Shown here piece by piece: positions 1,560 to 4,785 of a DNA stretch of 41,025 nucleotides. The first letter of the stretch is position 1, and each line of letters starts with the position of its first letter. The notes under the pieces were generated by a model. The model ran no database searches. It had not been told where the DNA came from and saw only the letters and a list, made by a program, of their open reading frames with translations. The DNA comes from Erysipelotrichaceae bacterium. GTDB lineage: Bacteria > Bacillota_I > Bacilli_A > Erysipelotrichales > Erysipelotrichaceae. The position numbers and the translations under genes were made by a program. The stretch spans positions 1-41,025 of the forward strand of contig JAFUCG010000052.1 in NCBI GenBank assembly GCA_017459795.1, given 5' to 3'.

Positions 1560-1580
1560 AAACCGCAGCTGCGGTTTTTA
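1560..1580. terminator. Bidirectional terminator between msrA and the ATP-grasp gene
   Basis: The perfect palindrome AACCGCAGCTGCGGTT (1561-1576) is flanked by A-runs on the left and T-runs on the right, so it can end transcripts from both sides. It sits between two convergent stop codons. Confidence 0.85.
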
Positions 1581-2588
1581 TAGTCCCTTAACGTATTTCT
1601 TGAAGAGAGGCCACTGGCCTTTTTTATCTTTTGAGTGAGAAGGCATCTGGGAAATGTCATGAGAAGGGAATGGGTTTCCTTCAATTAACTGCGGACCGTT
1701 TTCCCCAACCGCAATGTCCCAGCCAATGTAACCGATCTGCGGTACAACGTGGGCAGCCTCCAGACACATGTCTACGGCTTCCTTCCAATATGGCAACTGG
1801 TAGCCAATGAGATTTGTATGAGTCATTGGATGCTCCTTATAGGATACGTAGTTCTTATCATAGGCCGGATATTCAATGATGCCGTTGGTAATGTTAATTG
1901 GAGCACTCATGCCGCCGGCATTGATGTTATCGATGACTTTTCCTTCATTACCCATTCTGATTACGCTGTAAACAACATGGGCTTCATTATCACTCATTAC
2001 CGTTACGATACGGTAGGTATTTATTGAGTATGGGTAGATTTTTGAAACATCAGGATGCTGCTTAATGACTTCTTCAATGATGCCAGGATTCTGACCCTTA
2101 ACATATTGGTAGAACTGTTCAACAGTTTCATAATCCTTCTTATAGAGCTTTTCTACACCCTGACCGCAGGTGGCATCCAATGGTTTGATGATGATGTCAT
2201 CCTTATCGGCAATGAACTTAGTGAATGTTTCCAGGTTTAATTCATCCCCGGCCATCCAGTCACGCAGAATGTATTTCTTATATACTCTGTTGAATTCAAC
2301 CTTGTCATCCAGAATTCTGGTATAGGCAGGGTCGTTTAATAATTTGACGATGCTGTTGTTCTTGCCTCTGGTAACATAGGTTTCCTTTAGGGAATCAGGC
2401 AGCTTGTAGAATTCAAACAGGCTGTAGTCATTATAGCCTGCACCATATTTCAAACCGCATCTGATCACATCATAGAAAAGGAAAGCTGAACTCTTACCGG
2501 TTCTCTTGTGCAGTGAATCTATCATCTTAAAGAAGCTTGAATAGTCCATCTGGAATATTCGCTTGATCATGTACTTTACGTTCATCAT
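1578..2588 (-). CDS. ATP-grasp protein, sugar-transfer-associated type
   Basis: About 336 residues. The middle and C-terminal parts show ATP-grasp features: DDIIIKPLDATCGQGVEKLY (nucleotide-binding lysine and glycine-rich loop), a central INTYRIVT strand, and a C-terminal metal-binding segment GYIGWDIAVGENGPQLIEGN. This matches the family often annotated as sugar-transfer-associated ATP-grasp or hexapeptide-transferase-like (PF14397 type). ATP-grasp enzymes join a carboxylate to an amine or thiol through an acyl phosphate; the substrates here are unknown. The start is ATG 2588 (or 2585), preceded by AGGGTGAT, the same ribosome-site style as msrA. It is divergent from murT, so a role in cell-wall or surface polymers is possible but inferred. 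Confidence 0.8.
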   Translation of the reverse strand: MMNVKYMIKRIFQMDYSSFFKMIDSLHKRTGKSSAFLFYDVIRCGLKYGAGYNDYSLFEFYKLPDSLKETYVTRGKNNSIVKLLNDPAYTRILDDKVEFNRVYKKYILRDWMAGDELNLETFTKFIADKDDIIIKPLDATCGQGVEKLYKKDYETVEQFYQYVKGQNPGIIEEVIKQHPDVSKIYPYSINTYRIVTVMSDNEAHVVYSVIRMGNEGKVIDNINAGGMSAPINITNGIIEYPAYDKNYVSYKEHPMTHTNLIGYQLPYWKEAVDMCLEAAHVVPQIGYIGWDIAVGENGPQLIEGNPFPSHDISQMPSHSKDKKGQWPLFKKYVKGL

Positions 2589-2639
2589 TATCACCCTGTT
2601 ATTATTTTACTATTAATCAGTCCTTAAATCCATAATCAG

Positions 2640-2708: not shown

Positions 2709-4067
2709 ATGAGCAAACTGAGATTCGCGGCTGGCTTAGTAGCCGGTAGGCTGGCCTTAAATACATTTAAATTACTTGGTAAGGACTATCAGACTGACAG
2801 ACTGGGTTACCTGCCGGTTAAGATCTGCCCTGACTTTGCAACTCATGTTGCCAGACCAAAGGTAGCCATAGCCATTACCGGGACCAATGGCAAGACAAGT
2901 CTGACAAACCTCATTTCTGACATCCTGAAACAGTGCGGTAATACCGTTTCCTGTAATAACTGGGGCGGTAACTACATGGGCGGTCAGTCATGGGCTTTTC
3001 TTAATTCCGTAAATGTCTTTAACAAGTCTCAGGTTGACTACATCGTCATGGAAACTGATGAAGGCGATTCAGCCATCACCTATCCGGTAACCAAGCCTGA
3101 TAACATCCTCATCAATAACATAGCCAGAGATTCGATTTTCAAGAATCCGAATCCTGATTTCATCATGAGCAGATTAAGAAAGGCCATGGAAGGAACACCT
3201 GAATCAACTTTGATCTTAAACGCTGATGACCCGGTTTCCTGCTTCTTAAAGACCAATAAGAAGAATATCTACTTTGGCATAGCCGACTTAGGTAACGGTA
3301 CTCCTGAATATCTGATCAATGACTTCAGAGTATGTCCAAATTGCGGCGGCACAATTAAATACTTATATAAGAACTACGGTAACATCGGTAAGGTGGTTTG
3401 CCCGGATTGCGGCTTGAAGTCACCTGAAGCTGATTATCTTGGTGTAGAAGTGGCTAATGATCACATCTGCATTAAGGAACCGGATGGCAGTATCAACCGT
3501 TATCCGACCATCAGCGGGGATATCTATAATGCCTATAACATTGTTGAGGCTGTTGCCCTATTCAGAACCTTGGGCATACCGGCTGATAAGATAGCTGAAG
3601 CAATCGGCAAGGTAAAGCTGCCAAGCATCAGAGAAGAAAGATATCAGGGTAAGGAAATCGAAGTGGTAAACAGATCACTTAAGAACAGTAACGGTACTGC
3701 CGCTACCGTTCAGTTTGAATCCTTAAGCAAGATGAAGGATGACATGGCTGTCATTCTGATGCTTGATGAAGTTACCGGTAATAACAGAGTTGAAGCGATC
3801 ACCTGGATGTATGATTCAGATTATGAGTTATTAAACTGTGATCACATCAAGCAGATAATCATCGGCGGGGAAAGATGTCTTGACCATAAGCTCAGATGCT
3901 TATTAGGTGGGGTAGATAAGAATAAGATATCTACCTGTAAAATGGCCGTTGATACATTTGACTATCTGAAGCTTGAAGGCATTAAGAAAGTATACATTCT
4001 GTATGACATCTACAATACGGAAAGATCACATGCCGTATTTGAAAAGATAAGGGAAAGGATAGATTAG
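2709..4067 (+). CDS. murT: MurT-family ligase (lipid II isoglutaminyl synthase, MurT subunit)
   Basis: A 452-residue Mur-ligase-fold protein. In other Gram-positives MurT, with GatD, amidates the alpha-carboxyl of D-Glu in lipid II. Visible are the ATP loop GTNGKTS (58-64), METDEGD (115-120), the LNADDP segment (170-175), a Cys4 zinc ribbon (C209, C212, C231, C234) and the C-terminal DUF1727 domain. The ligase half looks functional. In the C-terminal domain, two segments that face GatD in known complexes are altered: KNSNG (325-329) where KNPAG is usual, and residues 352-373 where LNxxxADGxDVSW is usual. AGGAG precedes ATG 2709. The next gene starts one base after the stop. This pairs with a degenerate GatD, so the true acceptor chemistry is open. 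Confidence 0.9.
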   Translation: MSKLRFAAGLVAGRLALNTFKLLGKDYQTDRLGYLPVKICPDFATHVARPKVAIAITGTNGKTSLTNLISDILKQCGNTVSCNNWGGNYMGGQSWAFLNSVNVFNKSQVDYIVMETDEGDSAITYPVTKPDNILINNIARDSIFKNPNPDFIMSRLRKAMEGTPESTLILNADDPVSCFLKTNKKNIYFGIADLGNGTPEYLINDFRVCPNCGGTIKYLYKNYGNIGKVVCPDCGLKSPEADYLGVEVANDHICIKEPDGSINRYPTISGDIYNAYNIVEAVALFRTLGIPADKIAEAIGKVKLPSIREERYQGKEIEVVNRSLKNSNGTAATVQFESLSKMKDDMAVILMLDEVTGNNRVEAITWMYDSDYELLNCDHIKQIIIGGERCLDHKLRCLLGGVDKNKISTCKMAVDTFDYLKLEGIKKVYILYDIYNTERSHAVFEKIRERID

Positions 4068-4068
4068 C

Positions 4069-4785
4069 ATGATCATTGAAGTACTGTATCCTGAATTAGG
4101 GACTTTGTATGGTGAAGCAGGCAACCTGATCTATCTGAAAGCCTGTTGTCCGGATGCCAAAGTAATTGAAACAAATCACAAGGATGTTCCTTACTTTGTT
4201 AATCATGACGTTGATGTCATCTTATGCAGCTCAATGCTGGAAAGATTCCAGAAGACAGCGGCTGATGCCTTAAGACCTTATAAAATCAAGCTGTATGAAT
4301 TGATTGAAAAGGGCAAGGTAATGTTATTTACCGGTAATGCCAGTGACTTATTAGGCCAGTACATCTTAAGAGAAGATGGCAGTAAGGAAGAAATGCTGAA
4401 GCTGTTTGCCTACCATACGGAGATAAAGAAGCGAATCAATTCGCTGATACTGGCTGATTTTGAAGACATGCAGATAATCGGATATAAGGCGCAGAACGGC
4501 CAGATATTTGACAGTAAGGACTTTGGTTTCCTGAAGGTTAAGGGCGGCATGGGCAATAACAGGGAAGACAGTAATGAGGGTATTCATTACCATAATCTGT
4601 TCGTTACTTACCTGACTGGCCCGTTCTTACCGCAGAACCCATTATTCATGAAGTATCTGTTAAGACTGCTTAACAGGGATGACAAAGTAGCCTTTGAAGA
4701 AGAAGCCCTGGAGGCTTACGAAAACAGCTTAAGAGAATATACAGATCCGGCCATCAGCTATGATCTGATCTGGCACAATGTATGA
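4069..4785 (+). CDS. gatD: GatD-like glutamine amidotransferase subunit lacking the catalytic Cys and His
   Basis: A 238-residue class-I amidotransferase fold matching GatD along its whole length: LYPELGTLYGEAGNLIYLK at the N-terminus, LLGQYI after the nucleophile elbow, MGNNREDSNEG, and TYLTGPFLPQNP near the C-terminus. GatD normally hydrolyses glutamine to supply ammonia to MurT. Here the elbow reads LFTGNASDLLG instead of ICGGYQLLG, so Thr88 replaces the cysteine nucleophile. TYLTGP replaces TYLHGP, so Thr183 replaces the catalytic histidine. The only cysteines (26, 27, 53) lie far from the elbow. The gene is otherwise intact and coupled to murT by one base, so it is not a pseudogene. A structural or altered-specificity role is likely. 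Confidence 0.88.
   Translation: MIIEVLYPELGTLYGEAGNLIYLKACCPDAKVIETNHKDVPYFVNHDVDVILCSSMLERFQKTAADALRPYKIKLYELIEKGKVMLFTGNASDLLGQYILREDGSKEEMLKLFAYHTEIKKRINSLILADFEDMQIIGYKAQNGQIFDSKDFGFLKVKGGMGNNREDSNEGIHYHNLFVTYLTGPFLPQNPLFMKYLLRLLNRDDKVAFEEEALEAYENSLREYTDPAISYDLIWHNV

Follow-up and report, generated by a model that had tools for sequence, protein, structure and literature searches.

MurT/GatD pairs whose GatD subunit lacks the catalytic cysteine and histidine form one clade, maintained by selection in at least 15 related genera. The member described here lies in a 41,025-nucleotide stretch of the genome of an Erysipelotrichaceae bacterium from the goat gut (contig JAFUCG010000052.1), hereafter the window. 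To our knowledge, the characterised MurT/GatD enzymes are all glutamine-dependent amidases. A large natural clade that appears to have lost its glutaminase yet keeps a remodelled GatD implies that another reaction takes place at this position of the cell wall, and the annotation 'lipid II isoglutaminyl synthase' is unsafe in Erysipelotrichaceae. No report of the clade was found among open-access papers, an incomplete part of the literature.

A MurT/GatD pair with an altered active site

The two genes in the window are separated by one base (Table 1). MurT contains the domains PF08353 (2.3e-15) and PF08245 (7.8e-11), and its alignment with the solved MurT chains 6fqb, 6gs2, and 9sq9 spans almost the full length. 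The solved structures matched by the GatD sequence are GatD chains only, from S. aureus, S. pyogenes, and S. pneumoniae. Both subunits were modeled as monomers: the AlphaFold2 model of GatD (pLDDT 78.7) first matches 5n9m and the GatD of 6gs2 with a TM score of about 0.7–0.77, and the MurT model best matches MurT chains, followed by the archaeal pseudomurein ligase pMurC (6vr7). Sequence and alignment bear out the initial annotation of this DNA in that MurT keeps its ATP loop, its acidic site (ExDE), and the Cys4 ribbon.

Table 1. Coordinates of the gene pair, its key residues, and the adjoining ligase gene
Feature	Positions	Strand	Basis
PF14397 ATP-grasp ligase, divergent from murT	1578..2594	-	PF14397 1.2e-52; recurrent neighbour
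MurT-like Mur ligase subunit (452 aa) that pairs with the Cys/His-less GatD	2709..4067	+	intact ORF
MurT ATP loop GTNGKT, residues 58-63	2880..2897	+	sequence, alignment
MurT Cys4 zinc ribbon, C209, C212, C231, C234	3333..3410	+	alignment; PF08271 match weak
MurT loop KNSNG, K325-G329, for canonical KNPxG; two residues longer	3681..3695	+	alignment
MurT Glu362 (NRVEAITW), region of canonical DGxDVSW / S. aureus Asp349	3792..3794	+	alignment
GatD-like subunit (238 aa) lacking the catalytic Cys and His	4069..4785	+	intact ORF
GatD T88-G89-N90-A91, the clade's new motif; G89 at the Cys94 position	4330..4341	+	alignment with canonical GatDs
GatD Thr183 at the His189 position	4615..4617	+	alignment

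The pair scores far below the NCBIfam equivalog cut-offs (143/800 and 67/400); canonical relatives also fall below them, and these cut-offs were therefore dropped as a test of membership. Judged by its parts, the pair has the MurT domains with the Cys4 ribbon, the GatD fold, and a gatD gene directly 3' of murT, all as in an isoglutaminyl synthase, and lacks GatD Cys94/His189, the MurT Asp349 motif, and the KNPxG loop.

GatD columns were assigned from an alignment of more than 110 sequences, both clade and canonical. The initial annotation had placed a threonine at the nucleophile position; the loss of the cysteine stands, but the residue in the Cys94 column is Gly89, with Thr88 occupying the Ile93 column. 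Its threonine at the catalytic histidine position was read correctly. The catalytic triad proposed for S. aureus spans the subunits, with GatD Cys94 and His189 joined by MurT Asp349 (PMC6113224), and for S. pneumoniae an Asp in GatD itself has been proposed as the third residue instead (PMC6085368); the window GatD is acidic at the latter position (Glu16). The canonical GatD loop GGG(S/A)D reads SSMLE in the window, and this change, together with the loss of DGxDVSW in MurT, further supports the loss of glutaminase activity that the sequence predicts from Gly89 and Thr183. An alternative Cys/His dyad was rejected, as no such pair is conserved across the Cys/His-less clade: the cysteines of the window GatD (26, 27, and 53) are unconserved and some members (e.g., L016) are cysteine-free.

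The altered pocket follows a recurrent pattern among the 64 aligned GatDs of the clade. Glycine occupies the Cys94 column in 61, preceded by threonine in 58 and followed by asparagine in 54; Gln98 is replaced by Glu/Asp in 58, which completes a new motif, TGNA-x-(E/D), and Asp63 by Glu in 60. Arg128 is retained in 61 of the 64, and the arginine at this position captures glutamine in known GatDs (PMC6085368). This conservation suggests a pocket that has been re-patterned rather than decayed, possibly a repurposed site for an amino acid or a carboxylate. Two clade members, L042:1793-2452 (G004) and L078 (G142), have a cysteine near the elbow (FCGSA and VCGNG, respectively) and no catalytic histidine; they are possible evolutionary intermediates.

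The MurT segments facing GatD, which the initial annotation had described as diverging jointly with GatD, are indeed altered, from KNPxG to KNSNG and from DGxDVSW to NRVEAITW, and the joint divergence extends to the whole clade. KNPxG and DGxDxxW are each missing from 59/59 partner MurTs, whereas canonical MurTs carry DGxDxxW in 47/48 and KNPxG in 45/48 cases. Nearly all clade MurTs retain the ATP site, the zinc ribbon, and the interface-loop RD. In many members the C-domain loop reads K-x-x-N-P, which we take to resemble the NANP loop of MurF.

Distribution and descent of the clade

We scanned 171 Erysipelotrichaceae genomes, each at least 90% complete, with a GatD profile and found the protein in 125. 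The Cys/His pair is missing from the fetched GatDs that score at least ~180 bits and from one that scores 80, and it is kept in those at 130–178 bits. With unfetched hits assigned to one type or the other by this score split, 38 genomes in 15 genera carry the Cys/His-less type only, 87 the canonical type only, and none carries both, which argues that the Cys/His-less pair replaces canonical amidation rather than supplementing it. Neither type was matched in the remaining 46 of the 171, and the family thus appears able to do without D-Glu amidation by MurT/GatD.

In a tree of 113 GatDs, all Cys/His-less sequences fall on one side of a single branch with a support of 100, and in a tree of 107 MurTs the partners of these GatDs are likewise set apart by a single branch (support 99). 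Clade members outside Erysipelotrichaceae comprise three from a different family within the same class (L205–L207) and two in metagenome-assembled genomes labelled Clostridia (L003 and L004). Between close relatives, the dN/dS of GatD is 0.08 (the window and L007) and 0.10 (G007 and G006), within the range of neighbouring genes, which indicates purifying selection rather than decay. The third-type murT of G007 (L041:1459-2813) is split into two overlapping ORFs of 219 and 241 aa, possibly by a frameshift or an assembly error in that genome. A MurT from G017 (483 bits), adjoined by a CRP-type regulator and with no GatD, was left out because it looks like a stray contig.

The source genome (assembly ~96% complete) encodes MurC, D, E, and F and three MurT/GatD pairs. 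The window GatD is 99% identical to that of a metagenome-assembled Erysipelotrichaceae genome from goat jejunum (L001), 40% identical to the GatD of the second pair (C64), and 27% identical to that of the third (C76/C175), whose MurT is apparently split over two contigs and is intact in G001. Every one of the three GatDs is Cys/His-less, and a canonical pair doing the amidation elsewhere in this genome was therefore rejected. Neither FemAB nor the DAP epimerase DapF was found in the ~96% complete assembly, and the MurE specificity motif, which reads TDDPRWEDP, was dropped as a guide to the position-3 residue because it is not decisive.

Gene neighbours and the proposed reaction

The ATP-grasp gene of the window is a repeated companion of the pair. 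A homologue is again divergent from the pair in L236, lies directly downstream of gatD (MurT-GatD-ATPgrasp) at L109 in one Erysipelothrix species, belongs to a four-gene run, flippase-ATPgrasp-MurT-GatD, in L234, and follows the order MurT-GatD-flippase-ATPgrasp in L002 and L235. ATP-grasp genes thus adjoin the pair in 4 of 15 genera, with a chance expectation of ~1e-6 for a 10-kb target in 1.8 Mb if shared ancestry is ignored. In the source genome, a SpoVB/MurJ-like flippase begins about 12 bases downstream of the C64 pair (L026:3642-6031), and its family also flanks pairs in L002, L032, L036, L037, and L234; this flippase belongs to PF01943, and its matches to the NCBIfam models TIGR02900 and MurJ fall short of the curated cut-offs. 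Many Cys/His-less pairs have neither gene alongside. Other surroundings include three tandem FemAB genes one gene upstream of a Cys/His-less pair in G023 (L044:2-3588) and, in two genomes of the source genus (G005/G008), a pair placed between mutS and an exopolysaccharide cluster with EpsG, Wzz, and epimerases (L034) or glycosyltransferases and LytR-CpsA-Psr (L035).

The association with PF14397 also holds at the level of whole genomes. Matches above the cut-off occur in 32/38 genomes with the pair versus 6/87 with canonical GatD (Fisher 8e-18) and, by genus, in 11/15 versus 1/27 (3e-6), both values uncorrected for relatedness. The PF14397 proteins of most carriers and of Erysipelothrix are 32–50% identical to the window ATP-grasp over nearly the full length. 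The six canonical cases, from genus g49, are only weaker or partial matches (25–34% identity), several in polysaccharide-type clusters; for these reasons they probably represent a different subtype. The open-access literature, with most subscription papers outside its scope, yielded no paper on the function of PF14397 or on the genes of group B peptidoglycan.

We give an even chance to the reading that the pair is an ATP-dependent ligase placing an amino acid on a precursor carboxylate, with GatD in a structural and perhaps substrate-binding role. Specifically, MurT would activate the carboxylate as an acyl phosphate, most likely the α-carboxyl of D-Glu on lipid II, for attack by a nucleophile that is most likely an amino acid and not ammonia released by GatD. 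GatD, no longer hydrolysing glutamine, would still be required to complete the complex, and its remodelled pocket (the retained Arg and Thr-Gly-Asn-Ala-x-acid) may hold the incoming amino acid. The pair would probably work with the adjacent ATP-grasp, adding a side branch or a bridge to the precursor of a cell that has no FemAB, and the SpoVB/MurJ-like flippase would probably cooperate with the sister pair. We infer the substrate carboxyl, the nucleophile, and the role of the ATP-grasp; an amino acid is preferred in view of the changes in the MurT loop, the new pattern of the GatD pocket, the several divergent pairs per genome, and the neighbouring amino-acid-type ligase. A GatD without glutaminase could serve structurally, by analogy with S. 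aureus, where MurT with GatD Cys94Gly loses the use of glutamine, keeps that of ammonia at pH 8.5, and still requires GatD (PMC3266927). Of the amino-acid ligase proposed in the initial annotation, a nucleophile other than glutamine-derived ammonia survives as the most economical explanation, but the tie to group B peptidoglycan as a general rule does not.

This tie is a special case of the amino-acid ligase, and our confidence in the one overlaps with that in the other. The pair would prime group B cross-links by placing the first bridge residue on the α-carboxyl of D-Glu, with the ATP-grasp adding the next, a role that we regard as possible and hold tentatively. As a group B bridge begins from a carboxyl, each extension step must activate a carboxylate; Mur-type and ATP-grasp ligases therefore fit better than Fem transferases. 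The source genome, like Erysipelothrix, has no detected FemAB or DAP epimerase, which is consistent with group B. With matches under about 50 bits left out, FemAB is present in 16/17 canonical genomes, 10/24 genomes with the Cys/His-less pair, and 0/7 Erysipelothrix genomes tested. FemAB is anti-correlated with PF14397 (5/27 vs 20/2, Fisher 3e-8), and among carriers of the pair the ATP-grasp occurs in 14/14 FemAB-less genomes versus 5/10 with FemAB (p 0.006), again uncorrected for relatedness. The 10 carriers with FemAB speak against group B priming by the pair, and so does Erysipelothrix itself.

A peptidoglycan of type B1δ has been reported for E. rhusiopathiae and Holdemania filiformis (PMC4062643). 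Genus g58 was identified as Erysipelothrix because it carries, at up to 96% identity, the end on the rumA side of the record for phi1605, a phage of E. rhusiopathiae. In 10 of its 11 species the profile scan found no GatD, and the only matches to MurT were weak ones from other Mur ligases; the eleventh carries a Cys/His-less pair. The pair is thus not the group B priming enzyme in those 10 species, and group B walls can apparently form without it; the expectation that loss of the GatD Cys and His tracks with reported group B peptidoglycan finds no support as a general rule, either here or in the FemAB-containing carriers. The PF14397 ATP-grasp is present in 10/11 Erysipelothrix species, usually in two copies, which in several lie about 6 kb apart and flank tig-lon-ysxC-like genes near glutamate racemase; in G151 (L232), a PF14397 gene is three genes from the racemase, the latter identified by eye. 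Since Erysipelothrix keeps this ATP-grasp mostly without MurT/GatD, we infer that it is the better shared candidate for group B. A bridge pathway made wholly of ATP-dependent carboxylate ligases, with amino acids attached by MurT/GatD pairs whose GatD has been repurposed to bind them, extension by PF14397, and export by a dedicated flippase, and with the ATP-grasp also building the group B bridge in Erysipelothrix, is a more speculative proposal that we consider rather unlikely. The pair and the PF14397 ATP-grasp are concrete candidates for the ligases of group B and other α-carboxyl-substituted peptidoglycans.

The S. aureus Cys94Gly result fits the use of ammonia equally well, which makes an ammonia-dependent amidase the main rival to an amino-acid ligase. 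MurT would then produce isoglutamine from free gut ammonia on an inert GatD scaffold, consistent with the glycine that the clade has exactly at the Cys94 position and with the replacement of canonical GatD by the Cys/His-less pair. We nonetheless find this explanation doubtful. The S. aureus enzyme does not use ammonia at pH 7.5 (PMC3266927), and the changes in the MurT loop and DGxDVSW, the three divergent pairs in one genome, and the new pocket motif exceed what the loss of a glutaminase calls for.

Transfer of an amino acid to another polymer, such as an exopolysaccharide or a teichoic-type chain, is suggested by the pairs that head polysaccharide clusters in the source genus (L034 and L035), owing to which lipid II may not be the substrate of every paralogue, and by the name of PF14397, that of a sugar-transfer-associated family. 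As a general explanation it is improbable: most pairs lie outside such clusters, as does the racemase-linked ATP-grasp of Erysipelothrix L232, and the pair never shares a genome with canonical MurT/GatD, which points to a common site of action. Finally, the lost catalytic residues could in principle mark a decaying pseudo-pair, an assembly error, or a frameshift, the last of which the initial annotation had thought unlikely; we reject all three almost with certainty, given intact coupled ORFs, a motif shared by 64 sequences from many assemblies in one clade, and the low dN/dS.

Comparison with known systems

The clade shares with the MurT/GatD complexes of known structure (6gs2, 6fqb, and 9sq9) the gene pair and its order, the MurT domains, the ATP loop, the Cys4 ribbon, and the GatD fold, and retains, as in known GatDs, the glutamine-capturing Arg and the GP-x-L-x-x-N segment. 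Unlike these complexes, the window pair has no Cys94, His189, or Asp349 motif and a changed GGG loop, and the clade has a longer, altered KNPxG loop and the new TGNA-x-E/D motif. The closest engineered parallel, S. aureus GatD Cys94Gly (PMC3266927), also combines a glycine at the nucleophile position with a GatD that is present without glutaminase activity, but it keeps His189, Asp349, and KNPxG, and its use of ammonia is confined to high pH; the natural clade has been altered further than this mutant. The archaeal MurT-like ligases (PMC11915815) and pMurC (6vr7) are MurT-related enzymes that likewise act without a glutaminase; they have no GatD partner, whereas the clade keeps its apparently dead GatD in a conserved operon. 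FemAB/FemX presumably serve the same process, the addition of a side branch or bridge to the precursor, through tRNA-dependent acylation of an amine, whereas the MurT/GatD pair would use ATP to activate a carboxylate.
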